Shown here: piece after piece, positions 1,331 to 64,000 of the stretch
How positions within the stretch are numbered: the first letter of the stretch is position 1
Layout of the letters: each line of letters begins with the position of its first letter
Assembly: GCF_040183065.1 (NCBI RefSeq)
Contig: NC_091132.1
Location: 162,924,102 to 162,988,101, forward strand
DNA length: 64,000 bases
Source of the DNA: Periplaneta americana
Taxonomy: Eukaryota > Arthropoda > Insecta > Blattodea > Blattidae
Direction of reading: 5' to 3'
The notes under the pieces: generated by a model
What the model was told of the DNA's origin: nothing
Database searches by the model: none
Seen by the model: only the letters and a program-made list of their open reading frames with translations
Made by a program: the position numbers and the translations under genes

Positions 1331-1520
1331 ATTACGGCCCCATGTAGTATTTTGTACCTGAATCGGCAAAATTAGTACCAAGAGGGGTGGGGATCTTATG
1401 ATAGTTACCAATTTGGTCCCAGCTTGGACTTTGAGGAATGTGGTCTCTTATGTTAATGGCTGTGACATACTTAAAATAAGCACTACTGGTATATCTGCAT
1501 ATTAATAGTAAACTACTTAC

Positions 1521-1658
1521 ATCAACTTCAGACTTCACCATAGGAAAGGTAATAGGCACTGAAATGTGTTCTACTTTTATCTCTGATTTGAGATCACAGC
1601 AGTGGTCCACGCATTCCATCTTCATACCCATCACTTCCAGATTCGATAAATTGCCTTC
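1521..1658 (-). CDS. Second zinc-finger gene (copy A), coding exon 2
   Basis: This internal exon of 138 bp (46 codons, phase 0 at both ends) encodes an acidic leader peptide starting EGNLSNLEV and ending MVKSEVD. It is bounded by an acceptor (tag at 1659-1661) and a GTAAGT donor (1515-1520). It is the paralogue of the exon at 30286-30417 with two additional codons. In insect zinc-finger genes of this kind, such exons lie between the start exon and the finger-array exon and carry no fingers themselves. The finger exons of this gene would be left of the window, so the gene is partial here. The assignment is strong because both splice sites and the frame are conserved between the copies. Confidence 0.8.
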
Positions 1659-1925
1659 CTACAGAAAATAAAGTCATCTTGGATAAAATTATTTAGCTAT
1701 TTTAAAGTTCAATTGATGTGTAATAACTTACAATCTAGTTCTGCTTGGCAATCACTGACTAACTCTTTCAACACAGACAACAAATTAAAGAAGAATACAG
1801 AAGGCAGAATAGGAACTAGATCATAAGAGACACAGGTAACGTCTGATAATAAGCGAGGTGTTCCTTCCAAAAGTAAATTACATAGTTACTGCAATAATAT
1901 GTGTAACAGAAGCTGAATTGATAGA
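1652..1925. repeat. Direct repeat, first copy (exon 2 acceptor and upstream intron)
   Basis: This stretch is repeated at 3772-4030. It begins with the last seven bases of intron and first bases of exon 2 (ttgccttcctac) and continues into the intron. Copy B has only one version (30411-30660). The 1.85 kb between the two copies, which holds a LINE fragment and a SINE, is absent from copy B. Confidence 0.7.
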
Positions 1926-2704
1926 AAGATTTATTGATATTAGTTCACAAAAGTACCAAACTTAATAATTTAACAAAAAAATCTATATACAAAAGTAGTT
2001 ATACATAATAAATATAAAATATCGTAAACTACTTAATTTATCGCAAATCTCAATAATTTATTGGTTCAAACTCGCACTTACGTCTGGTTTTAGTGCATGC
2101 TTAAACCAATCGTGATAACCATTAAAACTTTAAACCTTATTTATCTGCTCCTTTTCACAATTTACTACCATGAATATTTTTAATACTTTTTAAATTTTAA
2201 CTCTACAATAAACAAGTGCAAATTAATCTTTCCTGTTGCTCTATTTATCCAATATTTATGTTTAATGTTTAGGTCCTATTTTACATAATAACTTATCATT
2301 TCAAATAGGGGACAGACGTCGACATACTGTAAGTCATGAGCCTGAAATAGCTGAATCGGTACATTCCATATGTAGCTTAATCTTTACTCTTGCAATATTT
2401 TCTTGTCAGCGGAATCGTTTGCGTAACTTCAATGAAGACTACCGCATACATGTTTCAACACAAACTTGACAAGTTGCTTACATAATCAACATCAATTTAG
2501 TTTCATTATTGTATCGTATGCACTCATTTTCGATTCATTGCTATTAACAATAACAATAACAAACAAAACTGCCTCCCATTGGAGGTAGCCCAGAAGGACT
2601 CAGTATACTCTCCTACATGAATTTTGCAATATTGAATGTTTACATAAATTTTGTAGAAAGAAAATTAAAATAAACATATATGAATAGAAAGTGAATAAAA
2701 AAAA

Positions 2705-3220
2705 TTAAACAGAGTGAATATGATGACTCAGAATTTGGCAAGAGCGTTTCAAAACTGAAGTTATGATGTCAGCAGTAAGTGTCTGTGGTAGTTCAAAAGT
2801 CTTCCTGAAGCTTTCAAAGAACTTGGGAATCACACCACGAGCTCCAATAAGAAGACCAATCACCTCAATGTCTTCAAGCTGGTATTTTGCTTTGAAGTAA
2901 TCAACTGTTGGCAGATAAATGTTGATCTTTTCTTTATTGACATCCTCCGGCTGGCTACTCCCTGTTTCAATCCTTATGGTAGGATCAATTATATATCCTT
3001 TCTTGGTAGTCTGGGAATACGCTATGATGTCAATACATCTAGAGGAGCCATTAGTAGCAAGGCAAAAGACTTCCTCTTCTACTGTCCAAGACTTTTTTCT
3101 TAAAGCAGTTGCAATTAAGGATCGAACATGATGGTGTCTGGCATTTCGGAGGAGTAAACCTCTGTTACACTGACCTTGGACGTGGGCATTCTTATTGAAT
3201 TTAAAATATAGGAGTTAACC
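2705..3220 (-). pseudogene. LINE 3' fragment, C-terminal endonuclease-like domain
   Basis: Read on the minus strand, an uninterrupted frame runs from about 3220 to a TAA at 2705-2707. It has no start codon because it is a 5'-truncated copy. The peptide includes GLLLRNARHHHVRS, then SRCIDIIAYS, GYIIDPTIRIE, INIYLPTVDYFKAKY and VIGLLIGARGVIPKFFE. This order resembles the C-terminal domain after the reverse transcriptase in some arthropod non-LTR elements; the pattern of acidic D residues (CIDIIA, IIDPT) suggests a restriction-endonuclease-like fold. The family is named from memory and is tentative. It is absent from copy B, so it inserted after the duplication or was lost there. It lies in an intron of the partial zinc-finger gene, in the same orientation. 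Confidence 0.6.
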
Positions 3221-3370
3221 AATTTATAAAGTCACATTATCTTCTGAACTTTTAATAATTAATATAGCTATCGGAATACATTAATAACTTCATTAATTCT
3301 CTGTTTTCAATATTTTTTTATTATTATTTTAAAACCTAGACGTTATTCTATCTTATTTTCAAAAACTGTC

Positions 3371-3612
3371 TTTTTTTTTTTATTGGGTTATTTTACGACG
3401 CTGTATCAACATCTAGGTTATTTAGCGTCTGAATGATATGAAGGTGATAATGCCGGTGAAATGAGTCCGAGGTCCAGCACCGAAAGTTACCCAGCATTTG
3501 CTCGTATTGGGTTGAGGGAAAACCCCGGAGAAAACCTCAACCAGGTAACTTGCCCCGACCGGGATTCGAACCCAGGCCACCTGGTTTCGCGGCCAGACGC
3601 GCTGACTGACTG
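3371..3612 (-). mobile_element. tRNA-derived SINE (minus orientation)
   Basis: A B-box-like motif on the minus strand (GGGTTCGAATCCC, complement near 3560-3575) marks the tRNA-derived head at the right end. The body reads towards a tail with attttacgacgctgtatcaa at about 3390 and a poly-A (here poly-T, 3371-3381). The tail matches those of the SINEs at 20969 and 42028. Confidence 0.7.
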
Positions 3613-3771
3613 TCTTCTTATCTTATTTAGTTAATAATTAGATTTTCTAATTTTAGGAAAATTTAATCTTTGCTGATGCCTATCTCTTAGTAGGTAGTTT
3701 CGTTCAGTATCTATATCCTTGATTGAATTTACTTTATTTCTGCGATAGTTTCTATTTGTCATTTTACCTCT

Positions 3772-4030
3772 TGCCTTCCTACAGAAAATAGTCATCTTGG
3801 ATAAAATTATTTAGCTATTTTAAAGTTCAATTGATGTGTAGTAACTTACAATCTAGTTCTGAATGGCAATCATTGGCTAACTCTTTCAACATAGACAACA
3901 AATTAAGGAAGAGTACAGAAGGCAGAATAGAAACTAAATCATAAGAGGCACAGGTAACGTCCGATAATAGGCGAGGTGTTCCTTCAGAAAATAATTTACA
4001 TAGGTACTACAATAATATGTGTTACAGAAG
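3772..4030. repeat. Direct repeat, second copy (truncated exon 2 edge)
   Basis: Duplicate of 1652-1925, starting with only the first bases of exon 2. The exon here is broken off and not functional. Sequence continuing to the right (4030-4115) matches copy B at 30660-30755, so this copy is the original intron flank and 1652-1925 stays attached to the intact exon. Confidence 0.65.
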
Positions 4031-4426
4031 TTGATTTATATCCTATACAATCTGTGTCAATGTTTTTCCAAGAAGAATATTTGATTACTAAGGACAATAC
4101 CGAAGTGGAATTATGTGTACTTGTGGGAGGGAATTATCACTCACAATATATCACAGATTGTTTTAAATATTCTACAGAGACAAATGTAACTACAGCAACC
4201 TTACAGTATTTCACCATTAACAGCTACTTGGAAGAAATTCCTAATACTATCATCGTGTAAGAGCTAACTACTAGAATAGTACCACTTTACCCACAGAAGA
4301 GGTGAAAGATCCTACGGCGTAGCACTCTAATTTAGTCTACTGAATATAAAGTGTAAAATGTAATATTTTTCTTGCATGGTCAAACAAACAAATAAACAAA
4401 ATACATAGTGTGTCTTTTCAGTTTAC

Positions 4427-6798: not shown

Positions 6799-8729
6799 CA
6801 GAGCCTTCTTCAGTTACAAGCCGGAGCATGGGTAGGTTTGGCAACTCTGAGTGGAGGCAGGAGATTCTAAAGTGGTATTGATATAATTGTGCTTGCTCAT
6901 TGCTTTCGTTGTACGTAACGTGTATTTTTTCAATATTACTTTATGCACAAAGGTAAGATCAAGATTCAGAATAGTGATGTAAATTATTATGGATTCGAAA
7001 ATAGTGTTTTATTGCAATCAATTAGCTATACTTCAGAATACGGCGTAAGTAGGCTACTTACATACAAAGACTTCCACTTAAAATAATTACAAAAAAAAAT
7101 ATTTTTATTGATAGTACAAATGTAAATAAATAAAAAAGATATTCCTTGCACCGAAAATAATAAAATCAATAATGCAATAAAGACTTAAGTTTCTACGCAG
7201 TATTCATAAGTTCCATTCACTTAACAAATTTGTGGCTAGCAAATTGACAATGTTTTGCGACTTTATGGTGTTTCACCTGTAACGTGAAAGGTTTACGATA
7301 CATTTTAATATTATCTTATGCGATTATCCATCGTGCTTTTCTATAAATACTGTATTTCAGATGCCCAGGAAGCCAGTTTTAGTTTGAACCTGGCCAGTCA
7401 CTGTAAGGTTCCTGTTATCCTAAATTATTTGTTATAAACTTTTTAAGATATAACTACTGCAAACAAGCTAAGAATGTAAATTATGCAAATAAAATAAAAA
7501 GGTAAATAGAGGAAACTATTGACATATAATAAAATATGAGTACGTAAATACAGTTAGGTCAAATATACAGATCTATGAAAACATGAAGAAACATACCTTC
7601 AACATAATACGTAACAAAACACATCATTATCTATTAAGTATGTGCCAATTAGCGTAAACTCAGTGAACTTTAAATCCTGTAAATACGAAGTGAAAAGAAA
7701 CATATTTATAACTAATTTATTACAAAAGAAATAATATTAATCAACAAACTTTGAAAAGAACAAATGCATCCACAAATTATAGGTAGTTCTGACGAATAAC
7801 AGGCATTCCGAATCTTCAACAAAACTGCAACATTTATGGGATCACAAAACAGCTGTTTACAATGAACTTGAAACTCAACGGCGTAACTTTATTGATATAT
7901 TAATATTCAGGGAGAAAAATTCGCTCCGGCGCCGGGAATCGAACCCGGGTCCTTGGTTCTAAGTACCAAGCGCTCTGACCACTGAGCTACGCCGAATCCG
8001 ATCCACAGCACCGGACCGAACCTTCCTCCCCGAATGTTTCCCTTTTGGCCTGACTCCAAGTTAGGCATATATGTTGACGTATATGTCCAATGTCAACTGC
8101 CATTATATTAGGAGCGCACTCAGTTGAGTGACTTGTTTGGCCGGGATTCCGCAGTTAAGTGCACAGTAATCTGTACAGAAATATGCACTGCCAGCTATGA
8201 GAGCGCTTGGTACGTAGAACCAAGGACCCGGGTTCGATCCCCGGCGCCGGAGCGAATTTTTCTCCCTGAATATCAATTGTCAATATTACAGATATTATTC
8301 TGTAGGACAAATTAATAAAAATATCTTTATTGATATAGCAGGTGAGACCCAACAATTTGGCTAGAATTCTGATACACCACAAACCACAAATAAGACTATA
8401 AAAATGTAGTTTATATAATATTTAATATTTAGAAAATTGTCAATTATTTTGTCATTATTAATAACTGTAAAAATTGGCAAAGACTGCAACCATATTTTCA
8501 TTTATTGCCTTGTTTTTCTCGCCAATACGCACTTAGTTTATAATACATCAACAATTAACGTTTGGTACAACCGCGAACATAATTCCATCGACACACACTT
8601 ATATTGTAACATTAATTTACATTGAAAATCGGCATTAGCACAAACACGTGTTCTGTGTGGTAGGCCTACGGTTGACAGTTAATGACAGTGTTGCCGACGT
8701 ATGGCTCCCGCTTGTAACTGAAGAAGGCT
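6799..8729. mobile_element. hAT-like non-autonomous DNA transposon (copy A)
   Basis: The terminal inverted repeats (TIRs) begin CAGAGCCTTCTTCAGTTACA at 6799 and end with the inverse at 8729. The element is flanked by tcttaag (6792-6798) and tcttaag (8730-8736). Copy B shows the uninterrupted site at about 38921-38940. The CAGAG terminus and 7-8 bp duplication fit the hAT superfamily. No intact transposase is visible. The same element, inverted, occupies 37003-38692 in copy B at a different target site. A tRNA-like palindrome is nested at 7902-8322. Confidence 0.75.
7902..8322. mobile_element. Palindromic element with tRNA-like arms, nested in the hAT-like element
   Basis: The left arm at about 7908-7995 is the reverse complement of the right arm at about 8195-8275. 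Both arms hold a tRNA-like half with the B-box-type motif GGGTTCGATCCCC (right arm) and the sequence CTTGGT...ACCAAG, which would form an anticodon stem. The left arm keeps the D-arm-like end gagctacgcc. The element is flanked by the 11-12 bp duplication tttattgatata, at about 7890 and 8325. The copy B version of the hAT-like element lacks it (37405 region), so the empty site is known. Confidence 0.7.
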
Positions 8730-18689: not shown

Positions 18690-19024
18690 CGTAAAACATA
18701 TTCCGCAAATATCACATTTCAAACGTAATTCGCCTGTGTGAAGGACTTTTACGTTTTTTTAACTTTCCGATTCAGGATAACTTTTTCGACATACATTGCA
18801 TTTGGTTTCTTGCCAGTATGTGATTGTTGAGGTGTCCCACTTGTGAAATACAGATTCCATAGACATCGCCTTTCAATGTTTTTAGCCTGTGTGAAGGCTT
18901 ATGTGTTTAAGTGCACCAATTACCAAAAACACTTTACATACACCCAGCTCCAGAATGGCATTATGCCTGTGAGTATGCATGCATGCATTTACGCTTAAAA
19001 ATTACGATGCATATGAATGGCGTT
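18690..19024 (-). pseudogene. Decayed zinc fingers after the stop codon
   Basis: Beyond the stop at 19025, the minus strand still shows finger and linker remnants in shifting frames: LHTGELRLKCDICGI (about 18695-18740), CNVCRKSYPESES (about 18765-18810) and other partial CxxC and HTG pieces up to 19020. The array was once longer at its C-terminal end and has been shortened by stop and frameshift mutations. The remnants would now be 3' UTR. Confidence 0.65.
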
Positions 19025-20057
19025 TCACCTGTGTGTCTGTGCATGTCTCGTTAATTTTGACGAAGCTGAGAAACGCTTTCCACAAATCTCGCATATGAAT
19101 GGCCTTTCCCCTGTGTGAATGCGCACATGATGGTTTCGGTGTACCAATTGCGAGAAACCTTTTCCACAAACGTCGCATTTGTATGGCATTTCACCCGTGT
19201 GTGAGTATCCATGTCTGGTTAAAGCTATCGATGACGAGAAACACTGTCCACAAATCTCGCATTTAAAAGGCTTTTCGCCTGTGTGAATGCGCACATGCCG
19301 CTTATGGTGTACCAATTGAGAGAAACACTTTCCACAAAAGTCGCATTTGTATGGCATTTCACCCGTGTGTGAGCGTGCATGTATGGTTAACGCTGTGGAT
19401 GCCGAGAAACACTTTCCACACAATTCACATTTGAATGGCTTTTCGCCTGTGTGAATGCGCATATGACGCTTCCGATGCACTAATTGCGAGAAAAACTTTC
19501 CACAAACGTCGCATTTGTATGGCATTTCACCTGCGTGTAAACGTGCATGTCTGTTTAAAGCTGTCGATGACGAGAAACACTTTCCACACAATTCGCACTT
19601 GAATGGCCTTTCGCCTGTGTGTATGCGTGCATGAATGTTTAGATGTACCATTTGTGAAAAACATTTTCCACACACTTCACATTTGAATGGCTTCTCCCCT
19701 GTGTGTATACGTGCATGTCTTTTGATTTCGCGTGATCTGCTGAAAGACTTCCCACACGTATCACAATGAAATGACATCCCGTTTGTATGTAGAACTGAAT
19801 GTCTCTTTATAGCACTCAACTTCGAGAAACACTTCCCACAGACGTCACATTTGAATGACTTTATTGCGTGTATATCAAAATGAAATTTCAGAGATTGTAG
19901 TGTAACAAAAACCTCGTTGCATATATTACACTTGATAGAAATACCGCTTATGTCTCCAATTTCCGAACCCTCTGGCCTGTTGCTGCCACATTTGTCTTCT
20001 TCTCGATCAATGTTGGCTTGATCTTGCGACACACCCTTCTCAAGATTATCCACAATG
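19025..20057 (-). CDS. C2H2 zinc-finger protein, finger-array exon (last coding exon)
   Basis: The exon starts after a ttattt-CAG acceptor (20058-20060) and ends with a stop at 19025-19027. Its first base completes an AGC (Ser) codon with the AG that ends exon 3, so the phases fit. After an acidic linker (IVDNLEKG, REEDKCGS) come 11 C2H2 fingers with TGEKPF-type linkers. The last finger ends LTRHAQTHR at the C-terminus. Fingers 5-6, 7-8 and 9-10 are alternating pairs (CELCGKCFSSST- and CDVCGKFFSQLV-type), which indicates growth by duplication of a 168-bp two-finger unit. It is presumably a nuclear DNA-binding protein; target unknown. All fingers keep both Cys and both His. The upstream ATG at 20074 is inside the intron and is not the start. 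Confidence 0.88.
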
Positions 20058-20254
20058 CTGAAATAATTATACAATTTATCGGTCTACACAATAATCAATT
20101 TCGTCAGTTAAAAATATTAGGCAAGCTGGACAAAATTCCGGCAGACTGGCGACGCTGATTTAACCTCTCCAGTTGCAAGCGTCGTTAAATAAAAAAAAAA
20201 CATAACCATTCATGTAAATGTATACGCATGTGTATATTAATTCGTGCATATCTA

Positions 20255-24887: not shown

Positions 24888-24962
24888 TTCCCGGGTAGCT
24901 CAGTTGGCAGAGCGCTGGTACATTCAACCAGAAGTCCCGGGATCGATACCCGGCCCCGGAAC
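24888..24962 (+). pseudogene. Full-length tRNA-like sequence (tRNA pseudogene or SINE head)
   Basis: It has all arms: acceptor gttcccg with gcccggaac-type partner (one mismatch), D-arm TAGCTCAGTTGGCAGAGC, anticodon stem CTGGT/ACCAG with loop ACATTCA, and T-stem CCGGG/CCCGG. The loop lacks the usual T before the anticodon (C at position 33), and the T-loop is ATCGATA, not TTCGA. It repeats the arms of the adjacent palindrome, so I treat it as element sequence, not a working tRNA gene. Confidence 0.55.
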
Positions 24963-31057: not shown

Positions 31058-31421
31058 TGTACCAAAGTAAATATATTTCCATGCAGGAATTCTGCGTTAT
31101 CATATGATGAAGGGTCAGTGGAGCGGAGAAAAATTCTCTCCGGCACTGGGATTCGAACCCGTGTTTTAAGCTCTACATGCTGACGCTCTATCCACTAAGC
31201 CACACCGGATTCCAATTCCGATGCCACATTGAATCCTCTCAGTTTAAGCCCCACCTCTTAGTTTTCCTTTAGTGGCCAACCCTCATGCACTGTGTCACAG
31301 ATGTGTGACAGTGGTGCAATGTTCAACACACTAATGTACAGAGCTGCATCCTTCATTATATAATAACGCAGAATTCCTGCATGGAAATATCATATGTACT
31401 TCGGTATATCATTGGCTTCCT
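31058..31421. mobile_element. Palindromic element with tRNA-like sequence
   Basis: The arm at 31058-31105 (with ttccatgcaggaattctgcg) is the inverse of 31364-31421. Inside, the minus strand has a tRNA-like stretch at about 31135-31210 with GGGTTCGAATCCC-type B-box and the D-arm end ggcttagtgg. It shares its interior, inverted, with 32490-32790. Confidence 0.65.
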
Positions 31422-32489: not shown

Positions 32490-32790
32490 GACGGCGCTCA
32501 TTCCGTCGGATCACAGCCACTTAGTCTATCGTAATGAGTGCACCTCTGCACATTTGTGTGTTGGACATTGTGCCACTGTCACACATCTGCGACACAGTGC
32601 ATGAGGGTTGGCAACTAAAGCGAAAACTAAGAGGTGGAGCTTAAACTCAGAGGATTCAATCTGGCACCAGAATTGGAATCTGGTATCGCTTAGTGAATAG
32701 AGTATCAGTACGTAGAGCTGAAAACCCAGATTCGAATCCCAGTGCCAGAGAGAATTTTTCTTCGCTCCACCGATCCTTCATCAAAACTCA
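32490..32790. mobile_element. tRNA-like element, inverse of 31110-31360
   Basis: The stretch from about 32540 to 32770 is the imperfect reverse complement of 31120-31330, including a plus-strand tRNA-like region (gcttagtgaatagagta to ttcgaatcccagtgcc, 32687-32750) followed by gagagaatttttctt. It represents another copy or the other arm of a larger foldback split by the LINE. Confidence 0.6.
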
Positions 32791-46429: not shown

Positions 46430-46526
46430 TAACCATTCTGTTACATGCATTAAGTGAGAGCCTTTATGCATTAGGAGTCTCACAATACCCACATAACCTC
46501 CTCTCACAGGAGCAAATATTAGGCTT
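46430..46526 (-). pseudogene. Decayed ankyrin repeat beyond the stop codon
   Basis: Directly after the TGA at 46527-46529 the other frame reads ESLIFAPVRGGYVGIVRLLM then HKGSHL. This matches the repeat consensus (ESPIFAAAQRGNLDVVRLLM, DKGADV). At least one more repeat was once coding; a frameshift created the present terminal stop. Confidence 0.75.
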
Positions 46527-49500
46527 TCAAAACACGTTACATTCATTAACATTAGCTCCTTCATCCATCAGGACCATCATTACATCTATATTACCTTCTT
46601 CAGCAGCTACGAGTATTGGACTTTCACCAGACTCGTTACAAGCATTAACATCAGCGCCTTCATCAAGTAAGATTCTCACGATATCCAAATTACCTCCTCT
46701 CACTGCAGCGAATATTAGACTTTCACCTGAATTGTTACATCCATTAACGTCAGCGCCTTTATCCATTAGGAAACTCACAACATCCAAATTACCTTGTTGC
46801 GCAGCAGCGAATATTGGACTCTCTCCATCCTTGTTATATGTATTAACATCAGCGCCTTTATCCATTAGGAGTCTCACAACATCCAAATTACCTACTTCTG
46901 CACCAGCAAATATTGGAGTGTCACCATCATCATCACGTACATTAACATCAGCGCCTTTATCCATTAGCAATCTCACAACATCAATATTACCTTGTTGCGC
47001 AGTAGCAAATATTAGACTGTCACCATCCTCATTACGTACATTAACATCAGCGCCTTTATCCATTAGGAGTCTCACAACATTCAAATTACCTCGTTGCGCA
47101 GCAGCGAATATTGGACTCTCTCCATCCTTGTTATATGTATTAACATCAGCGCCTTTATCAATTAGGAGTCTCACAACATCCAATTTACCTTGTTGCACAG
47201 CAGCGAATATTGGACTGTCACTATCCTTGTTACATGCATTAACATCAGCGCCTTTATCCAGTAGGAGTCTCAGAACATCGAAATTACCTCGTTGCGCAGC
47301 AGCGAATATTGGACTGTCACCATCCTTGTTACATACATTAACATCAGCGCCTTTATACATTAGGAGTCTCACAACATCGAAATTACCTCGTTGCACAGCA
47401 GCGAATATTGGACTGTCACCATCCTTGTTACATACATTAACATCAGCGCCTTTATCCATTAGGAGTCTCACAACATCGAAATTACCTCGTTGCGCAGCAG
47501 CGAATATTGGACTGTCACCATCCTCATTACGTACATTATCATCAGCGCCTTTATCCATTACGAGTCTCACAACGCCAAAATTATCTAGTTGCGAAGCAGC
47601 GAATATTGGACTGTCACCATCCTCATTACGTACATTAACATCAGCGCCTTTATCCATTAGGAGTCACAGAACACCAAAATTATCTAGTTGCGAAGCAGCG
47701 AATATTGGACTGTCACCATCCTCATTACGTACATTAATATCAGCGCCTTTATCCAATAGGAGTCTCACAACATCCAAATTACCTTGTTGCGCAGCAGCGA
47801 ATATTGGACTCTCTCCATCCTTGTTACATGCATTAACATCAGCGCCTTTATCCATTAGGAGTCTGACAACATCCAAATTACCTTGTTGCGCAGCAGCGAA
47901 TATTGGACTCTCTCCATCCTTGTTACATGCATTAACAGCAGCGCCTTTATCCATTAGGAGTCTGACAACATCCAAATTACCTTGTTGCGCAGCAGCGAAT
48001 ATTGGACTCTCTCCATCCTTGTTACATGCATTAACATCAGCGCCTTTATCCATTAGGAGTCTGACAACATCCAAATTACCTTGTTGCGCAGCAGCGAATA
48101 TTGGACTCTCTCCATCCTTGTTACATGCATTAACATCAGCGCCTTTATCCATTAGGAGTCTGACAACATCCAAATTACCTTGTTGCGCAGCAGCGAATAT
48201 TGGACTCTCTCCATCCTTGTTACATGCATTAACATCAGCGCCTTTATCCATTAGGAGTCTGACAACATCCAAATTACCTTGTTTCACAGCAGCGAATATT
48301 GGACTCTCTCCATCCTTGTTACATGCATTAACATCAGCGCCTATATCCATTAGGAGTCTGACAACATCCAAATTACCTTGTTGCGCAGCAGCGAATATTG
48401 GACTCTCTCCATCCTTGTTACAAGCATTAACATCAGCGCCTTTATCCATTAGGAGTCTGACAACATCCAAATTACCTTGTTGCGCAGCAGCGAATATTGG
48501 ACTCTCTCCATCCTTGTTACATGCATTAACGTCTGCGCCGTTATCCATTAGGAGTCTGGCAACATCCAAATTACCTTGTTGCGCAGCAGCGAATATTGGA
48601 CTCTCTCCATCCTTGTTACATGCATTAACATCAGCGCCTTTATCCATTAGGAGTCTCACAACATCCAAATTACCTTATTGCGCAGCAGCGAATATTGGAC
48701 TCTCTCCATCCTTGTTACGTACATTAACATTAGCGCCATTATCCATTAGGAGTCTCACAACATCCAAATTAGATTGTTGCGCAGCAGCGAATATTGGACT
48801 CTCTCCATCCTTGTTACATGCATTAACATCAGCGCCTTTATCCATTAGGAGTCTGACAACATCCAAATTAGATTGTTGCGCAGCAGCGAATATTGGACTC
48901 TCTCCATCCTTGTTACATGCATTAACATCAGCGCCTGTATCCATTAGCAATCTCACAACATCCATATTACCTCCTCTAACAGCAGCTAATATTAGACTGT
49001 CACCGAACTTGTTAAATGCAATAACATCAGCGCCTTTACCAATTAGGAGTCTAAGAACATCCAAATTACCTCGTTGCGCAGCAGCAAAAATTGGACTCTC
49101 ACCATACTTGTTATGTACATTAATATCAGCGCCTTTATCCATTAGGAGTCTCACAACATCCAAATTACCTTGTTGCGCAGCAGCGAATAATGGACAGTCA
49201 CCATCCTCATTACGTACATTAACATCAGCGCCTTTATCCAATAGGAGTCTCACAACATCGAAATTACCTAGTTGCGCAGCAGCGAATGTTGGATTCTCAC
49301 CATACTTTGTACGTACATTAACATCACCGCCTTTATCCATTAGGAGTCTCACAACATCCAAATTACCTCGTTGCGCAGCAGCGAATATTGGACTCTCACC
49401 ATATTTGTTATGTACATTAATATCAGCGTGTTTATCAATTAGGAGTCTCACAACATCCAAATTACCTCGTTGCGCAGCAGCGAATATTGGACTCTCGCCA

Positions 49501-52500
49501 TACTTGTTATGTACATTAATATCAGCGCCTTTATCCATTAGGAGACTCACAACATCCAAATTACCTTGTTGCGCAGCAGCGAATAATGGACTGTCACCAT
49601 CCTCATTACGTACATTAAGATCAGCGCCTTTATCCAATAGGAGTCTCACAACATCCAAATTACCTCGTTCCGCAGCAGCGAATATTGGATTCTCACCATA
49701 CTTTGTACGTACATTAACATCAGCGCCTTTACCAATTAGGAGTCTCACAACATCCAAATTACCTCGTTGCGCAGCAGCGAATATTGGACTCTCACCATAC
49801 TTGTTATGTACATGAATATAAGCGCCTTTATCAACTAGGAGTCTCACAACATCCATATTACGTCTTCTCATAGCAGCGAATATTAGACTGTCACTATCCT
49901 TGTTGCATGAATTAAGATCAGCGCCTTTATCAATTAGGAGTCTCACAACATCCAAAGCACCTGCTTCTGCAGCAGCGAATATTAGACTGTCACCATCCTT
50001 GTTACATGCATTGAGATCAGCGCCTTTATCAATTAGGAGTCTCACAACATCCAAAGCACCTGCTTCTGCAGCAGCGAATATTAGACTGTCACCATCCTTG
50101 TTGCATGCATTAAGATCAGCGCGTTTATCAATTAGGAGTCTTACAACATCTATATTATGTACTCTCATAGCAGCGAATATTAGACTGTCACCATCCTTGT
50201 TACATGCATTGAGATCAGCGCCTTTATCAATTAGGAGTCTCACAACATCCAAAGCACCTGCTTCTGCAGCAGCGAATATTAGACTGTCACCATCCTTGTT
50301 GCATGCATTAAGGTCAGCGCCTTTATCAATTAGGAGTCTCACAACATCCAAAGCACCTGCTTCTGCAGCAGCGAATATTAGACTGTCACCATCCTTGTTA
50401 CATGCATTGAGATCAGCGCCTTTATCAATTAGGAGTCTCACAACATCCAAAGCACCTGCTTCTGCAGCAGCGAATATTAGACTGTCACCATCCTTGTTGC
50501 ATGCATTAAGATCAGCGCCTTTATCAATTAGGAGTCTCACAACATCCAAAGCACCTGCTTCTGCAGCAGCGAATATTAGACTGTCACCATCCTTGTTGCA
50601 TGCATTGACATCAGCGCCTTTATCAATTAGAAGTCTCACAACATCTATATAATGTCCTCTCATAGCAGCGAATATTAGACTGTCACCATCCTTGTTGCAT
50701 GCATTAACATCAGCGCCATTATCAATTAGGAGTCTCACAACATCTATATTATGTCCTCTCATAGCAGCGAATATTAGACTCTCACCATCCTTGTTGCATG
50801 CATTGACATCAGCGCCTTTATCAATTAGGAGTCTCACAACATCTATATAATGTCCTCTCATAGCAGCGAATATTAGACTGTCACCATCCTTGTTGCATGC
50901 ATTAACATCAGCGCCTTTATCAATTAGGAGTCTCACAACATCTATATTATGTACTCTCATAGCAGCGAATATTAGACTGTCACCATTCTTGTTGCATGCA
51001 TTAAGATCAGCGCCTTTACCAATTAGGAGTCTCACAACATCCAAAGCACCTGCTTCTGCAGCAGCGAATATTAGACTGTCACCATCCTTGTTACATGCAT
51101 TAACATCAGCGCCTTTATCAATTAGGAGTCTTACAACATCCAAAGCACCTGCTTCTGCAGCAGCGAATATTAGACTGTCACCATCCTTATTGCATGCATT
51201 AACATCAGCGCCTTTATCAATTAGGAGTCTCACAACATCCATATTACGTCTTGTCATAGCAGCGAAAATTAGACTGTCACCATCCTTGTTGCATGCATTA
51301 ACATCAGCGCCTTTATCAATTAGGAGTCTCACAACATCTATATTATGTCTTCTCATAGCAGCGAATATTAGACTGTTACCATCCTTGTTGCATGCATTAA
51401 CAACAGCGCCTTTATCAATTTGGAGTCTCACAACATCCATATTAAGTACGCTCATAGCAGCGAATATTAGACTGTCACCATCCTTGTTGCATGCATTAAC
51501 ATCAGCGCCTTTATCAATTAGGAGTCTCACAACATCGATATTATGTCCTCTCATAGCAGCGAATATTAAACTGTCACCATCCTTATTGCATGCATTAACA
51601 TCAGCGCCTTTATCAATTAGGAGTCTCACAACATCCATATTACGTCTTGTCATAGCAGCGAAAATTAGACTGTCACCATCCTTGTTGCATGCATTAACAT
51701 CAGCGCCTTTATCAATTAGGAGTCTCACAACATCTATATTATGTACTCTCATAGCAGCGAATATTAGACAGTCACCATCCTTGTTGCATGCATTAAGATC
51801 AGCGCCTTTATCAATTAGGAGTCTTACAACATCCAAAGCACCTGCTTCTGCAGCAGCGAATATTAGACTGTCACCATCCTTATTGCATGCATTAACATCA
51901 GCGCCTTTATCAATTAGGAGTCTCACAACATCCATATTACGTCTTGTCATAGCAGCGAAAATTAGACTGTCACCATCCTTGTTGCATGCATTAACATCAG
52001 CGCCTTTATCAATTAGGAGTCTCACAACATCCATATTATGTCCTCTCATAGCAGCGAATATTAAACTGTCACCATCCTTATTGCATGCATTAACATCAGC
52101 GCCTTTATCAATTAGGAGTCTCACAACATCCATATTACGTCTTGTCATAGCAGCGAAAATTAGACTGTCACCATCCTTGTTGCATGCATTAACATCAGCG
52201 CCTTTATCAATTAGGAGTCTCACAACATCTATATTATGTACTCTCATAGCAGCGAATATTAGACTGTCACCATCCCTGTTGCATGCATTAAGATCAGCGC
52301 CTTTATCAATTAGGAGTCTCACAACATCTATATTATGTACTCTCATAGGAGCGAATATTAGACTGTCACCATCCTTGTTACATGCATTGAGATCAGCGCC
52401 TTTATCAATTAGGAGTCTCACAACATCCAAAGCACCTGCTTCTGCAGCAGCGAATATTAGACTGTCACCATCCTTGTTACATGCATTGAGATCAGCGCCT

Positions 52501-55500
52501 TTATCAATTAGGAGTCTCACAACATCCAAAGCACCTGCTTCTGCAGCAGCGAATATTAGACTGTCACAATCCTTGTTACATGCATTGAGATCAGCGCCTT
52601 TATCAATTAGGAGTCTCACAACATCCAAAGCACCTGCTTCTGCAGCAGCGAATATTAGACTGTCACCATCCTTGTTGCATGCATTAAGATCAGCGCCTTT
52701 ATCAATTAGGAGTCTCACAACATCCAAAGCACCTGCTTCTGCAGCAGCGAATATTAGACTGTCACCATCCTTGTTGCATGCATTGACATCAGCGCCTTTA
52801 TCAATTAGAAGTCTCACAACATCTATATAATGTCCTCTCATAGCAGCGAATATTAGACTGTCACCATCCTTGTTGCATGCATTAACATCAGCGCCATTAT
52901 CAATTAGGAGCCTCACAACATCTATATTATGTCCTCTCATAGCAGCGAATATTAGACTCTCACCATCCTTGTTGCATGCATTGACATCAGCGCCTTTATC
53001 AATTAGGAGTCTCACAACATCTATATAATGTCCTCTCATAGCAGCGAATATTAGACTGTCACCATCCTTGTTGCATGCATTAACATCAGCGCCTTTATCA
53101 ATTAGGAGTCTCACAACATCTATATTATGTACTCTCATAGCAGCGAATATTAGACTGTCACCATTCTTGTTGCATGCATTAAGATCAGCGCCTTTACCAA
53201 TTAGGAGTCTCACAACATCCAAAGCACCTGCTTCTGCAGCAGCGAATATTAGACTGTCACCATCCTTGTTACATGCATTAACATCAGCGCCTTTATCAAT
53301 TAGGAGTCTTACAACATCCAAAGCACCTGCTTCTGCAGCAGCGAATATTAGACTGTCACCATCCTTATTGCATGCATTAACATCAGCGCCTTTATCAATT
53401 AGGAGTCTCACAACATCCATATTACGTCTTGTCATAGCAGCGAAAATTAGACTGTCACCATCCTTGTTGCATGCATTAACATCAGCGCCTTTATCAATTA
53501 GGAGTCTCACAACATCTATATTATGTCTTCTCATAGCAGCGAATATTAGACTGTTACCATCCTTGTTGCATGCATTAACAACAGCGCCTTTATCAATTTG
53601 GAGTCTCACAACATCCATATTAAGTACGCTCATAGCAGCGAATATTAGACTGTCACCATCCTTGTTGCATGCATTAACATCAGCGCCTTTATCAATTAGG
53701 AGTCTCACAACATCGATATTATGTCCTCTCATAGCAGCGAATATTAAACTGTCACCATCCTTATTGCATGCATTAACATCAGCGCCTTTATCAATTAGGA
53801 GTCTCACAACATCCATATTACGTCTTGTCATAGCAGCGAAAATTAGACTGTCACCATCCTTGTTGCATGCATTAACATCAGCGCCTTTATCAATTAGGAG
53901 TCTCACAACATCTATATTATGTACTCTCATAGCAGCGAATATTAGACAGTCACCATCCTTGTTGCATGCATTAAGATCAGCGCCTTTATCAATTAGGAGT
54001 CTTACAACATCCAAAGCACCTGCTTCTGCAGCAGCGAATATTAGACTGTCACCATCCTTATTGCATGCATTAACATCACCGCCTTTATCAATTAGGAGTC
54101 TCACAACATCCATATTACGTCTTGTCATAGCAGCGAAAATTAGACTGTCACCATCCTTGTTGCATGCATTAACATCAGCGCCTTTATCAATTAGGAGTCT
54201 CACAACATCCATATTATGTCCTCTCATAGCAGCGAATATTAAACTGTCACCATCCTTATTGCATGCATTAACATCAGCGCCTTTATCAATTAGGAGTCTC
54301 ACAACATCCATATTACGTCTTGTCATAGCAGCGAAAATTAGACTGTCACCATCCTTGTTGCATGCATTAACATCAGCGCCTTTATCAATTAGGAGTCTCA
54401 CAACATCTATATTATGTACTCTCATAGCAGCGAATATTAGACTGTCACCATCCCTGTTGCATGCATTAAGATCAGCGCCTTTATCAATTAGGAGTCTCAC
54501 AACATCTATATTATGTACTCTCATAGCAGCGAATATTAGACTGTCACCATCCTTGTTACATGCATTGAGATCAGCGCCTTTATCAATTAGGAGTCTCACA
54601 ACATCCAAAGCACCTGCTTCTGCAGCAGCGAATATTAGACTGTCACCATCCTTGTTACATGCATTGAGATCAGCGCCTTTATCAATTAGGAGTCTCACAA
54701 CATCCAAAGCACCTGCTTCTGCAGCAGCGAATATTAGACTGTCACCATCCTTGTTACATGCATTGAGATCAGCGCCTTTATCAATTAGGAGTCTCACAAC
54801 ATCCAAAGCACCTGCTTCTGCAGCAGCGAATATTAGACTGTCACCATCCTTGTTGCATGCATTAAGATCAGCGCCTTTATCAATTAGGAGTCTCACAACA
54901 TCCAAAGCACCTGCTTCTGCAGCAGCGAATATTAGACTGTCACCATCCTTGTTGCATGCATTGACATCAGCGCCTTTATCAATTAGAAGTCTCACAACAT
55001 CTATATAATGTCCTCTCATAGCAGCGAATATTAGACTGTCACCATCCTTGTTGCATGCATTAACATCAGCGCCATTATCAATTAGGAGCCTCACAACATC
55101 TATATTATGTCCTCTCATAGCAGCGAATATTAGACTCTCACCATCCTTGTTGCATGCATTGACATCAGCGCCTTTATCAATTAGGAGTCTCACAACATCT
55201 ATATAATGTCCTCTCATAGCAGCGAATATTAGACTGTCACCATCCTTGTTGCATGCATTAACATCAGCGCCTTTATCAATTAGCAGTCTCACAACATCTA
55301 TATTATGTACTCTCATAGCAGCGAATATTAGACTGTCACCATTCTTGTTGCATGCATTAAGATCAGCGCCTTTACCAATTAGGAGTCTCACAACATCCAA
55401 AGCACCTGCTTCTGCAGCAGCGAATATTAGACTGTCACCATCCTTGTTACATGCATTAACATCAGCGCCTTTATCAATTAGGAGTCTTACAACATCCAAA

Positions 55501-58500
55501 GCACCTGCTTCTGCAGCAGCGAATATTAGACTGTCACCATCCTTATTGCATGCATTAACATCAGCGCCTTTATCAATTAGGAGTCTCACAACATCCATAT
55601 TACGTCTTGTCATAGCAGCGAAAATTAGACTGTCACCATCCTTGTTGCATGCATTAACATCAGCGCCTTTATCAATTAGGAGTCTCACAACATCTATATT
55701 ATGTCTTCTCATAGCAGCGAATATTAGACTGTTACCATCCTTGTTGCATGCATTAACAACAGCGCCTTTATCAATTTGGAGTCTCACAACATCCATATTA
55801 AGTACGCTCATAGCAGCGAATATTAGACTGTCACCATCCTTGTTGCATGCATTAACATCAGCGCCTTTATCAATTAGGAGTCTCACAACATCGATATTAT
55901 GTCCTCTCATAGCAGCGAATATTAAACTGTCACCATCCTTATTGCATGCATTAACATCAGCGCCTTTATCAATTAGGAGTCTCACAACATCCATATTACG
56001 TCTTGTCATAGCAGCGAAAATTAGACTGTCACCATCCTTGTTGCATGCATTAACATCAGCGCCTTTATCAATTAGGAGTCTCACAACATCTATATTATGT
56101 ACTCTCATAGCAGCGAATATTAGACAGTCACCATCCTTGTTGCATGCATTAAGATCAGCGCCTTTATCAATTAGGAGTCTTACAACATCCAAAGCACCTG
56201 CTTCTGCAGCAGCGAATATTAGACTGTCACCATCCTTATTGCATGCATTAACATCAGCGCCTTTATCAATTAGGAGTCTCACAACATCCATATTACGTCT
56301 TGTCATAGCAGCGAAAATTAGACTGTCACCATCCTTGTTGCATGCATTAACATCAGCGCCTTTATCAATTAGGAGTCTCACAACATCCATATTATATCCT
56401 CTCATAGCAGCGAATATTAAACTGTCACCATCCTTATTGCATGCATTAACATCAGCGCCTTTATCAATTAGGAGTCTCACAACATCCATATTACGTCTTG
56501 TCATAGCAGCGAAAATTAGACTGTCACCATCCTTGTTGCATGCATTAACATCAGCGCCTTTATCAATTAGGAGTCTCACAACATCTATATTATGTACTCT
56601 CATAGCAGCGAATATTAGACTGTCACCATCCCTGTTGCATGCATTAAGATCAGCGCCTTTATCAATTAGGAGTCTCACAACATCTATATTATGTACTCTC
56701 ATAGCAGCGAATATTAGACTGTCACCATCCTTGTTACATGCATTGAGATCAGCGCCTTTATCAATTAGGAGTCTCACAACATCCAAAGCACCTGCTTCTG
56801 CAGCAGCGAATATTAGACTGTCACCATCCTTGTTACATGCATTGAGATCAGCGCCTTTATCAATTAGGAGTCTCACAACATCCAAAGCACCTGCTTCTGC
56901 AGCAGCGAATATTAGACTGTCACCATCCTTGTTACATGCATTGAGATCAGCGCCTTTATCAATTAGGAGTCTCACAACATCCAAAGCACCTGCTTCTGCA
57001 GCAGCGAATATTAGACTGTCACCATCCTTGTTACATGCATTGAGATCAGCGCCTTTATCAATTAGGAGTCTCACAACATCCAAAGCACCTGCTTCTGCAG
57101 CAGCGAATATTAGACTGTCACCATCCTTGTTACATGCATTGAGATCAGCGCCTTTATCAATTAGGAGTCTCACAACATCCAAAGCACCTGCTTCTGCAGC
57201 AGCGAATATTAGACTGTCACCATCCTTGTTACATGCATTGAGATCAGCGCCTTTATCAATTAGGAGTCTCACAACATCCAAAGCACCTGCTTCTGCAGCA
57301 GCGAATATTAGACTGTCACCATCCTTGTTACATGCATTAACATCAGCGTCTCTATCCATTAGCAATCTCACAACATCCATTTTACCGCTTCTCATAGCAT
57401 CTAATATTAGACTGTCACCATACTTGTTACATGCATTAACATCAGCGCCTATATCAATTAGGAGTCTCACAACATTCAAATTATCTCGTTGCGCAGCAGT
57501 GAATATTGGCGTCTCTCCATCCTTTTTACGTGCATTAACATCAGCGCCTTTATCCATTAGGAGGCTCACGACATCCAAATTACCTTGTTGCGCAGCAGCG
57601 AATATTGGACTCTCTCCATCCTTGTTACATGCATTAACATCGGCGCCTTTATCCATTAGGAGTCTGACAACATCGAAATCACCTCGTTGCGCTGCAGCAA
57701 ATATTGGACTGTAATCATTATTGTTAGGTACATTAACATTAGCGCCACTTTCTATTAAGAACTGCACAACCTTCATATGGCGACCACAAATTGCATAGTG
57801 CAAAGGAGGTCGGTTCCACTCAAATGCTGCATTAACATTTGCACCTCTCTCAACTAGTAATCTCACCGTTTCTAGATGACCGCTGACTGCAGCCCATGAC
57901 AAAGATGTTCTGTCGTCAGAATCTTTTGTTTCTAGACGCAATTTGACAGTAGCAAATGCCGTAGTCTGCTCAGTTTCTAGACGATATTGGTCGACAGCCC
58001 ACGCCAAAGCCCTTTTCTTTATAAAGCCTTGTGTGTCTCCAGCCTCGAGCAAAAATTCCACCAGCCTCGTTTGTCCAGCAAAAGATGCTATGTGTAACAT
58101 TGTGGCAGTAACATATTTTCCATACACATTATCATTAAAGAATGTTTCAATGGGATGATAGACACATAAGCCACATTTAAACATCAATTTTGCAATATTC
58201 ATATATCCCTGTAATGCAACAAATTTCAAAAATCTGCTCAAAAACTCATTACCCTCTTCACCCTTGACCAATTCCATAGTGAATATCATGTCTCTACTTT
58301 CAGCACGACTGCCCAGCAGCATGTCAACAGCTGACCATGCTTCTATCTTGTCAGCAAGTGTCAGGGGTCGCCAGTGAAATACTTCATCTTTAACTTTAAA
58401 ATCACAATGATTCTTCAATAATAACTCCATGATTTGAAATGTAGTTTTATTTGGTGAAAAATGAAAACCTTGATGGTGATTCATAATTGCCAAGTGCAAG

Positions 58501-61355
58501 GGTGTCCTCCCACCCTTATCCTTTCCATTCACATTACATTCAGGGAATGTCAGCAATTTGAGAACACAAGCTTTGTCTTCATTTAGAATGGCAGTATGAA
58601 ATTCATATCCTTCTGCCAGAATCCTATCAAAAAATTCTCTCACGACTATTAATTCTTTTGTAAATAATATTTCTTTTAGAAATTCTCTTTCTCCTTCGAA
58701 ATTTTTTGTGAACCACTTGGCGGCAAAGAACTCTAAAAATGTTCTGTGAATGAACATTGCTGTGGAATTTACAATTTGAGCTACAATTCCACTTTTCTCA
58801 TTTCCATTTCTAAATCGGTCCTGGAAACATTCAACTCGTCTCATAATATCTTTGGAGGACTGCAGTTTGTTAAGGTCTTCAGTCTTCAGCAAAGAATGCA
58901 CGGCAGATGCCATATGGTCTTTCTCATATTCTTCCCTCTTCGTCAGCATTAACTGATGCTGCACCAAATTTGTTAAATCTACTCGCCCCTTTTCACGAAC
59001 AAAGATATTCCACTTTCTATCCACGAATTTCTTATACAGTTCCAACAAATCCAGTTTGCGGTCAAATTTCACCTCGCCTGACTGACAAAAACGAGAAGCT
59101 TCATCACGAAATACTTCAGCCAACATGAGAATCTGTAGAGGAATTTCTGTGAATTGGCCAAGTTTGCCATTCAAAGAATTCCCTGTCACTTCTAACAAAT
59201 TGGCAATAAATATGTCTAAGTTACATGGACCATCTCTTATACCGTTCCAAAGTTTAGCAAGGAAATCACGTTGATCCTGTTCTTTGAAAGGTTGCAGTTC
59301 AAATGAAAGACAGGAGAACACTTCCTCCAGCATATCCTTCATTAAAGAACGAGAAGTGATCCAAAGCTGTTTAAATTTACAGTTGATGATAAGTTGTCTT
59401 AACATGAACAACACCTTCTCTGCGTAATCTGGGCTGATCTCGTCATACCCATCTATCAGTATCACAATATTGCCACCATGATGTAACTCGTGTTTGAACA
59501 GTGATGTAGCGAAGTCACTCGTGAACTTTCCTGCACGTAACAGAAGTTCAACTGCAGAAACTCCACAGTTACTCAGGTAATCAGTGTGCTCATTCAGAAC
59601 TACAGTGACCACCCAAAATGCCGGTTCATGTCGCTTGAATTCCTGAGCTAAATTTACAATTTCTGTTGATTTTCCCATTCCAGGGTGAGCCACAAGCAAC
59701 TTGACCTTGTCAGAGAGCATCATCACTTCCTGCAAACTTCTGATCGAGGTCACATCCATTAAGTGAGACTTAATATAGGATATACTGCCTTTGGACTGTT
59801 TCCAAATAAAGCCATTCTCTTCTTTATGAAGCCAATGGACTCGTTCAAACACGTTTTTGGCCTTCTCGAAGTCCTCTGTTCTTCGAATTACGAAACAGTG
59901 ACACACACTTTTCGCAGAATGTTTCGTTTCATCAAACATCTCTACTTCTTTCTTAGGCTGAACTATTTGCCTCAGAGCCTCCAGTGATATTCCACTTACA
60001 ACTAAGTAGTCCCGATCATCAGAAAAGATTTCCTCACTCACATGTTGTCTATTAAAAAACGTACGAGGTATATAGTATTCATTTTGTTGAGTGAGTTCAT
60101 CTCCAATGCGTTCGACAACTCCAGAGACCAACTGAGTTACAATTTCAGCGTTTGCTACTTCGTCGAATGTTGTGTCGTCAACCAATGTGTTAAGTTTGAT
60201 GGACTCACCTTGGAAATTTATTTTGCAATCTAATACTTGGATCTTTGATTCCTCATTCAGTTGCCCAAAACGAAACTCGTCTTTGTGAATGAGAGAATTT
60301 AATTCCCTCCCCTTCTCACTGTCATGAATCACTACAAGGGTCCTTCCTGAACCTAAATTGGTGACGACCTTTTCTATTGTCTCAACCCAGCCATCAATTA
60401 CAAGTACATCGCATTCAGGCCACCGACCCCACATTGCCAACACTTCACTCATTCTATCCTCCAACACGTTGGCATCTATCTCAATCTTGTTTGGAATGCT
60501 TTGGTGAACTTTGAGACAAGTGAGAGCATTAGTCTTGTGGACATTCAGAAATCCACCATCCACTGGCAGCTTCATTGCAAATGACTTCAACTCCTCTTCG
60601 TCAAACTGCAGATTAAATTTTGCGAGCTGATCTACTTTTTCTCTACTTAAGTCATCAACACTACACTTCACCATATTCTTCCAAAACTCAACACTCTCCA
60701 TAAGATAAGTTCCTGGACCTTTCCTCCAGTTCTCTATATTAGTCACAAATGTCTGGAACTGAGAATCTGTTCCCAATGCCCTATTAAGTTCAGATCTGAT
60801 TAAGGAATCAAGCTTCTCCTCACTTGCTTGCTCTGTGTAGAACCTGAACTGATGGAGGAACTGGTTGAAGTCAGGATCGTTCTCCAAAGTGGGGAAGTCA
60901 TTACTAGAGTATCGTTTGCATTTTCCTCCTTCTGTCATGAGGATAGTGTTGGAGTCAGTGTCAACACCTCCACCCTCAACCAGGGCTCCATTTGTGTAAA
61001 GAACATACCACACACTGCTGAACGGACCCCAGTGCTGTAGGCACTGTTTTCCTCCCCAGTATCCTCTTATCTTGAGGTAAGACTCGTAGTGCTCGTGGAT
61101 TCTAAAGATTTTGTCCATCGTATATTTTCTCTTTTTTGGTGCACTCTGTGAATCTTGCTTGTGTTTCAACTGTATCAACATCATATTATCATCTACATTA
61201 AGTATCAAGTCATCAAACTTTCCAGCTGCCTTCATGTTAGTTGCAATACGAAAGCTCTTTCTCTTATTGATGACTCTAAGAAAGAGAAGTCCAGCCATCT
61301 TCACTTCATACAGGTATCCTGCATTGCTGCAAGTCCCGTCAGTCTTCTCATAATC
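46527..61355 (-). CDS. Giant NACHT-ankyrin (NLR-like) protein, main exon, two in-frame stops
   Basis: One minus-strand frame spans the exon from a ttttacAG acceptor (61356-61357) to TGA at 46527-46529, about 4,940 codons, broken only by TAA (48675-48677) and TGA (47664-47666). The start codon is in an upstream exon not found here; a GTG at 61304 is an internal Val. Order: GYLYEVKMAGLLFLRV (61300s), FDDLILNVDD (about 61206-61223) and LIQLKHK (about 61160-61180), a possible PD-(D/E)XK-type arrangement. About 400 unassigned residues follow. NACHT: Walker A HPGMGKST (about 59665-59687), Walker B ILIDGYDE (about 59439-59462). The NLR-like HRTFLEFFAAKWF lies near 58715-58755. Then degenerate ankyrins from about 58600, and about 115 regular 33-residue repeats from about 57935. 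Role inferred: cytosolic sensor with STAND-type ATPase switching. If translation stops at the first TAA the product would still hold more than 90 ankyrin repeats. Confidence 0.85.
47664..47666 (-). other. In-frame TGA in the ankyrin array (second interruption)
   Basis: The usual GTT GTG AGA CTC CTA is here GTT CTG TGA CTC CTA: two substitutions, one of which turns AGA into TGA. The frame continues unchanged to 46527. Confidence 0.9.
48675..48677 (-). other. In-frame TAA in the ankyrin array (first interruption)
   Basis: Neighbouring repeats read GCG CAA CAA GGT at this place; here the second CAA is TAA, a single C-to-T change. The frame on both sides is the same, so this is a point nonsense mutation and not a frameshift. 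Confidence 0.9.
50150..56700 (-). repeat. Higher-order repeat: three tandem copies of a 22-ankyrin block (2178 bp)
   Basis: Corresponding sites recur at exactly 2178 bp (for example 50652, 52830, 55008; and 50890, 53068, 55246). 2178 is 22 times 99, so the block is a whole number of ankyrin repeats and keeps the frame. Copies differ by few bases: ggagtctcac at 50722 is ggagcctcac at 52907 and 55087; catcagcgcc becomes catcaccgcc at 54074 (Ala to Gly). Flanking repeats outside these blocks are more diverged. This indicates recent block duplication by unequal exchange or gene conversion. Confidence 0.9.
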
Positions 61356-61396
61356 CTGTAAAAGAACAACACATAATCAGTATGAACCACCACCAC

Positions 61397-62782: not shown

Positions 62783-64000
62783 GATAGATAAATGGATTTA
62801 TTGAGTAATAATATACTGTACATACATATGTACTATATTATCATAATTTTCTCTTATATCCGATGCACGGGTCTCCTGGTTGTACGTGCTTTGTACCTAA
62901 AACAAGTCCTACTTTGTAGGTTTCACCCATCTCACCTATGATTAGATCCAACCAGTCTCTAAAAGAACACACAGATTAAAATGAAAATGGCACAAACAAA
63001 ACACATTATATAATATATAATAATCTTAAACAGACATAAAAGTGTATAATTGAATAGATACCGTTATCCCTTCGTCAGTTCGCATCACAAACTTCAACAG
63101 CTGAAGTTCTAATCTTTCTCGCCTTCAAGAGGAACAATCCAGTCTTTTGTTCGTATTCTCTATTCCCCATGAGGTTAAGACATGCAAGGGAACACCTATT
63201 CTGACTTAGCATAGAAAGTGGTAGATATTTTCTCCGGATATGTTCCAATTCGACAGAATGCAGTAAAATATGTCTATAGGAGTCCTTTTCTCCGCACAGT
63301 GGACAAAGGCGCTCTCCTTCTTTGTTGACAATTTTATCACCTTCCCATGCCCCCAATCTTAGCCACGCTAAACCTGCTCTACTGTCTTTGTTACAAGAAT
63401 TTATGTAGTCACACCTCCCCCAGTTAAGCATGAGATCTGATTGTAAATTAATGTAGTGAGGACTTTTCCGAACATTAGAGCTCAATCTCTTTCCTCTCGA
63501 TATCAATTAATCGCATCTTCACATTACACCATACATTTCTTCTTTATTATCACCTTTATCCCACACCCATCCCATTCCTATATGATGCAGCCTTCTCTGC
63601 AGTTTATAAACCCACCCATTTTCCCAACTCTCTCTTTATTGAACTTTGTAGCAAATCGACCGTAAAAGCGACTGATCCCCAAATATAATTTTTAACCAGT
63701 CCTATTTTATCACCCTAACGTTCACATGAATTGCTTCCTTTTGTAGCCCAAACTCCTTTAGCACCCCGCAATTAGCTGTGCTTCTGCCAATTCCAAGTAT
63801 TCGTTTCAGGAAGTCCGTCTGTACCTTATTTAATTTTCCCGCATTTTTCCAACCCCAAATATCTGCCCCATACAACATAGATGACCTAACCACAGCACCG
63901 TATGCTAGCTCCAATGTTGCTGCAGGAATATCTGGCATTTTAGTGATCAATTTCAATACCTCCGCACTTTTTACCCCACACTTGCGTTTCGTTATGTCAA
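62783..64000 (-). pseudogene. LINE 3' part, extends past the right edge
   Basis: Minus-strand frames 63702-63956 and 63075-63506 belong to one element. The first reads LELAYGAVVRSSMLYGADIW and FLKRILGIGRST (thumb region after the RT). The second reads CDYINSCNKDSRAGLAWLRL and a knuckle CPLCGEKDSYRHILLHSVEL, ending EVCDAN with TGA at 63075-63077. Between them the frame is broken (63507-63700). The 3' end has a (GATA)-type tail (agatagataa at 62783) and resembles the tail of 33136-33967. Confidence 0.7.

Follow-up and report, generated by a model that had tools for sequence, protein, structure and literature searches.

A cockroach gene family combining a predicted Cap4-like nuclease fold, a NACHT domain and an ankyrin array

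A stretch of 64,000 nucleotides from the genome of Periplaneta americana (C16:162924102-162988101, genome of 3.23 Gb), hereafter called the window, carries on its minus strand a gene that probably belongs to a large NLR-like family of this cockroach. In the members of this family, a Cap4-type PD-(D/E)XK nuclease would be joined to a NACHT switch with its helical parts and to an ankyrin arm, and would be operated by the mechanism proposed below. A similar order, with a nuclease-type head ahead of a STAND ATPase in a single chain as in the bacterial Avs proteins, had been suggested in an earlier note made from the letters of the window only, and it is borne out for the NACHT domain and the predicted fold of the head. 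The features of the window copy, all located on the minus strand, are the following.

61356..61363 (-): splice acceptor TTTTACAG, which opens the main exon; the AG recurs in most aligned copies and the start codon is expected upstream
60591..61355 (-): N-terminal module, residues 1-255, Cap4/LmuA/DUF4297-like PD-(D/E)XK core with a helical extension (AlphaFold2 model, VIA-align)
60993-61325 (-): the PD-(D/E)XK core itself, approximately residues 11-121
61305..61307 (-): E17 of helix 1, the putative active-site Glu (E in 49/50 aligned loci, D in 1/50)
61209..61217 (-): F47-D48-D49, directly ahead of strand 2 (50/50)
61164..61172 (-): Q62-L63-K64 in strand 3 (Q and K 50/50, L 45/50)
59757..60677 (-): stretch linking the head to NACHT, residues 227-533, with a tentative AAA-like fold
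59253..59687 (-): NACHT domain, Pfam match to residues 557-701 (PF05729, 30.0 bits, cut-off 26.7)
59664..59687 (-): Walker A, HPGMGKST, read directly
59439..59462 (-): Walker B, ILIDGYDE, read directly
58557..59252 (-): helical portion that follows NACHT, residues 702-933, including HRTFLEFFAA at 58719-58748 (VIA-align matches span 540-933)
48678..58556 (-): ankyrin region to the first stop, degenerate units followed by about 90 regular 33-residue units (TRF, Pfam, motif)
50223..57152 (-): 2,178-bp higher-order repeat of 22 units, about 3.2 near-identical copies (repeat comparison)
48675..48677 (-): first in-frame stop, TAA (frame reading)
47664..47666 (-): second in-frame stop, TGA (frame reading)
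46527..48674 (-): array beyond the first stop, frame unchanged, with a terminal TGA at 46527-46529

Reading frame, exon boundary and ankyrin array

Within the window, the minus-strand frame can be followed from 61376 down to 48678 without a stop, that is over 4,233 codons. The uninterrupted frame reaching 46527 that had been read at the outset is ruled out by the TAA at 48677-48675 and the TGA at 47666-47664, both of which lie within the ankyrin array. The description of the gene as a single exon holds for the main exon and fails for the gene as a whole, whose frame offers no ATG ahead of the conserved E17 and opens at a splice acceptor. The boundary of the main exon reads TTTTACAG followed by GATTATGAG at 61356/61355 on the minus strand. 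An acceptor AG is found at the equivalent point in all 32 copies from L009 to L040 and in 37 of the 50 aligned copies; because of this conserved AG, the start codon is placed in an upstream exon. Four paralogue models from the NCBI (P0015, P0020, P0013 and P0022) display 7 extra residues ahead of the acceptor point.

Two other readings of the frames were discarded. A start at the first ATG would lose E17, and the plus-strand frames across the array are interpreted as an antisense shadow of the repeat. Upstream of the gene (63000-64000 of the window, minus strand), broken frames resemble by eye the final part of a non-LTR reverse transcriptase.

The estimate of about 115 ankyrin repeats of 99 bp proved accurate. 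TRF puts the array at 46432-57746, with 114.3 copies of its 99-bp unit, and 112 units are recognised by motif with an indel-free spacing of exactly 33 residues; given the position of the TAA, about 90 of the 112 are ahead of the first stop. The arm is of the ankyrin type, no leucine-rich repeat family being present among the Pfam matches. Some 6.9 kb of the array are occupied by the near-identical 2,178-bp repeat, successive copies of which differ by 3 mismatches at the best offsets, and the fact that the array stays open over such a length is therefore not independent evidence of coding. This block may originate from a recent tandem duplication or from an effect of assembly.

The N-terminal head and the NACHT switch

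The E...FDD...QLKHK pattern that had evoked a PD-(D/E)XK nuclease is indeed present in the window copy. The E, D and Q-x-K positions, whose conservation in orthologues had been set as a test of this reading, are kept in 49/50, 50/50 and 50/50 of the aligned genomic loci, respectively, and in a 33-sequence alignment the columns without any variation are F47, D48, D49, Q62, K64 and T121. The AlphaFold2 model of the head was built from 24 sequences (pLDDT 78, pTM 0.80) and displays a helix at 11-30, strands at 35-39, 50-54 and 57-64, a helix at 86-100 and a strand at 115-121. The predicted core is thus of the alpha-beta-beta-beta-alpha-beta type, with E17 in helix 1, the two Asp residues ahead of strand 2 and QxK in strand 3. 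The identical core reappears in a second model of 942 residues, built from largely the same sequences, so that the three-stranded core, also set as a test, is found in both predicted structures.

Structures were ranked with VIA-align, for the head as for residues 540-933, among the candidates returned by Foldseek. The best score for the head was obtained with HerA-DUF (15.8, rmsd 2.8, 178 residues aligned), followed by the N-terminal part of Avs3 (13.7), two LmuA entries (13.0), Cap4 (12.0 and 11.8) and Hachiman (11.4). The remaining LmuA/DUF4297 entries range from 4.8 to 8.1 and the first unrelated nuclease, McrBC, scores 5.7.

Profile searches were less uniform. The head of the window copy has no family match in Pfam, PADLOC or NCBIfam, and the link to nucleases at the sequence level consequently rests on its paralogues. 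The PADLOC LmuA profile PDLC03848 matches 9 of the 33 copies, the window copy not being among them, with a best value of 1.9e-7 for a noise level at which Cas8a and Cas11e appear at 0.002-0.004. When compared to the core alone, this profile gives 7.8e-7 for L043, 0.0006 for L048 and 0.01 for L041, and it matches neither of the two helical halves tested. Pfam provides no support for a nuclease, since Cap4_nuclease reaches 0.018 at best, in 1 of the 33 copies, and is outscored by the unrelated DUF7944 (0.0024, 7 of the 33 copies). The Cap4_nuclease model has no match over the P. americana genome, and equally none in 14 control genomes, so that its silence carries no information. In the profile search of solved structures, LmuA is retrieved at no better than E 0.086 and 0.19, ranks with or beneath unrelated chains, and is aligned outside the active site. 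The case for a nuclease is made by the fold, which is matched most closely by bacterial antiphage nucleases, by the conserved E, D and Q-x-K residues and by the LmuA profile in paralogues, and it supports the initial assignment of the head.

No Walker A motif was seen in residues 227-533 (59757-60677), between the head and NACHT, where a weak structural match suggests a possible degenerate AAA-like domain. As reported in the earlier note, Walker A, Walker B and HRTFLEFFAA share one frame; the Pfam NACHT score lies above its cut-off and a second, genome-wide profile search put the domain at the same site. The Walker A residues P, G, M, G, K, S and T each reach at least 90% in alignment A2. According to VIA-align, residues 540-933 of the predicted structure resemble NLRP3, NOD2 and NLRC4, and the NLR-like arrangement of NACHT, winged-helix and helical parts is present, with low model confidence at residues 682-710, 721-744 and 763-768.

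The cockroach family and its relatives

Comparison of the head profile to the genome yielded 104 matches (E up to 1e-3), merged into 93 loci, a number that is a lower bound. These loci are distributed over 12 contigs, among which C2 carries 30 and C16 carries 24. A NACHT match follows on the same strand in 57 of the 93 loci, 1,545-2,214 bp on from head start to NACHT start, and the other 36 have no NACHT match within 4 kb; conversely, 57 of the 65 NACHT matches come after such a head. Open frames of at least 1,000 codons (1,000 to 4,233) are found in 71 of the 93 loci and short ones in 22, the window copy having the longest frame among the listed loci. In three paralogue groups comprising 16 loci, the dN/dS of the head ranges from 0.29 to 0.78, and in the clade of the window copy (4 loci) from 0.59 to 1.23. 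Most of the family is therefore constrained, if weakly, and the window clade less so.

A number of loci depart from this layout. At C2 9.9-13.5 Mb, NACHT-ankyrin frames in which no head was found account for 5 of the 8 headless NACHT matches, some of them at about 25 kb or less from headed loci; L004 (C2:10375069-10378536) has a NACHT domain and no nuclease head in its frame. Loss or exchange of the effector is possible at these C2 loci. The strongest NACHT match genome-wide, L001 (C17:28305446-28309015), has the P-loop GGPGSGKT and no head match, and looks like a different NACHT protein. One NCBI model of 1,755 aa (P0002) displays two tandem heads, as a real fusion or as merged neighbouring copies.

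Named matches with the head or the head-NACHT part were restricted to P. americana and a single Daphnia protein in the protein searches, which depend on shared 5-residue words that relatives in other Blattodea could escape; the homologue search with the whole protein was dominated by ankyrin proteins. A metagenome protein (P0028) has E, FDD and QLK. The Daphnia galeata protein (P0121, 838 aa) carries FDD and QAK and has a Glu displaced by one column from E17. Its head is attached to a different remainder for which no Pfam domain is listed, and the head domain is therefore also found outside the NACHT layout.

The sensor arm of Avs proteins is TPR-like. Avs3, a bacterial antiphage STAND protein (PDB 8dgc), has its nuclease in front of a STAND ATPase within one polypeptide, an order shared by the cockroach protein with its nuclease-type head, from which it differs in that the latter has an ankyrin arm, a NACHT part like that of vertebrate NLRs and an animal host. 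The Cap4/LmuA/DUF4297 nucleases of CBASS, Lamassu and HerA-DUF share the fold and the E, D, QxK layout, and some paralogues match the LmuA profile; their control is exerted by a SAVED domain or by partner proteins, whereas the cockroach head has a NACHT domain in the same chain. The NACHT domain with its Walker A and B motifs is shared with the animal NLRs NLRP3, NOD2 and NLRC4; in contrast to these, the cockroach protein carries an ankyrin arm and a nuclease head, and neither a death-fold head nor leucine-rich repeats were seen in it.

Two published families of arthropods and their symbionts share features with this protein. Tox-REase-8 of arthropods and Wolbachia has in common with the cockroach family DD and QxK, ankyrin arrays, arthropod hosts and an intron: in the account of Zhang et al. 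(2012), it also occurs in Daphnia, mosquitoes, ants, beetles and Trichoplax, and most of the insect genes have at least one intron (PMC3482391). Compared by description, its printed motif is GxxxQ where the cockroach family has GxxxE, and that account of it names no NACHT domain (PMC3482391). A NACHT-ankyrin-latrotoxin protein of prophage WO has an animal-like NACHT followed by ankyrin repeats and homologues across arthropods and crustaceans; unlike for the cockroach protein, no nuclease head is named in its description (PMC5062602).

The prokaryotic-virus protein family phrog_9049 (4,700 positions) aligns with the 952-residue window protein over three stretches (5.7e-46), the best of which pairs 624-887 with 2163-2437. 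P0028 (1.7e-64) and P0121 (5e-11) are matched as well, as are 9 of the 10 proteins tested in all. The heads of P0028 and paralogues map to positions around 1113-1299, and phrog_9049 therefore contains head and NACHT regions arranged as in the cockroach protein. We tentatively equate this family with the NACHT protein of prophage WO. Two phage WO records, searched over their first 50 kb with profiles that do recover the cockroach copies, gave no match. Peptide-pattern scans of GTDB and IMG/VR retrieved no prokaryotic or viral relative, and tblastn retrieved none from phage records, a single match at E 9 being taken as chance.

The separate parts of the cockroach protein have been seen before in print, and their three-part combination was not found there: no account of the protein or of a cockroach repertoire was retrieved from the open-access journal articles searched.

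Mechanism, rival explanations and meaning

In the proposed mechanism, the ankyrin arm would keep the protein shut and act as a sensor by binding a ligand. The NACHT domain would then exchange its nucleotide and oligomerise, and the nuclease heads clustered in this way would become active on DNA, either foreign or the cell's own. The invader would be removed or the cell would die. By comparison, a review regards oligomerisation as the probable trigger of Cap4 in CBASS and leaves the question undecided for Lamassu (PMC10586767).

The likeness to toxins raises another explanation, namely that the head derives from toxins of the Tox-REase-8 type, of bacterial or endosymbiont ancestry, and that the family spread as killer or drive-like elements, not as immune sensors. 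Tox-REase-8 (GxxxQ, DD, QxK) is described mainly from Wolbachia and Amoebophilus, in most cases together with ankyrin arrays, as well as from arthropods (PMC3482391); Medea1 of Tribolium combines an NTPase with an REase domain, as its description states (PMC11342252); and the phrog_9049 match points the same way. The diverse clustered copies on 12 contigs and the splice acceptor conserved in the nearest clades look, on the contrary, like host genes, and the GTDB and IMG/VR scans brought up no relative within the peptide patterns used. This origin is considered quite improbable. Still less probable are heads that are inactive scaffolds, the fold being retained for binding of DNA or protein in what would be an ordinary ankyrin adaptor: likeness of fold alone shows no activity and dN/dS is near 1 in part of the window clade, but six head positions, those of FDD, Q62 and K64 included, are invariant in the alignment.

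Decay of the window copy within an otherwise working family is rather unlikely, though the likeliest of these alternatives. A pseudogene cut by stops, with an array inflated by recent tandem duplication, would account for the two in-frame stops, for the near-identical 2,178-bp repeats and for the dN/dS range of the clade, and two of the three nearest copies are shorter (L010 with 1,092 codons, L012 with 682). Against it, the third (L011) has 1,560 codons, and the window copy itself keeps 4,226 codons open, the longest listed frame, together with its active-site and Walker residues. Under the preferred reading too, the stops in the array may shorten the protein and the constraint on its clade is weaker, so that the window copy may be a decaying or polymorphic member of a working family.

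For the family as a whole, the preferred reading remains that of a nuclease under the control of a NACHT switch, with a candidate role in immunity suggested by analogy with the bacterial systems. Animal NLRs are known to act through adaptor and signalling domains, and the insect lineage is usually said to lack classical NLRs. There is about an even chance that cockroaches possess a large and diversified repertoire of intracellular NLR-type receptors with a DNA nuclease effector in the same chain, as an animal counterpart of bacterial Avs. Numerous copies with arms of differing length are the expected look of a sensor repertoire. If this holds, NLR immunity of animals and bacteria would be linked by the effector as well as by the switch, and insects would gain a class of receptors open to infection, knock-down and nuclease-assay tests. 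In the available text of an arthropod immune-gene survey, the terms NLR, NOD-like, NACHT and nucleotide-binding never occur (PMC4833078). NLR-containing sequences and one NACHT-WD40 sequence are listed in a termite transcriptome report (PMC3712931), and they speak against the idea of insects without NLRs.

The remainder of the window contains a few minor features. Rfam identifies four tRNA matches in the 64 kb (7924-7996, 24889-24961, 31138-31209 and 32679-32750) and ARAGORN three tRNAs, one of which has a stop anticodon; some of these matches may be SINE-like. A frame of 349 codons at 19009-20074 (minus strand), with a tandem period of 84 bp, has by eye the look of C2H2 zinc fingers.
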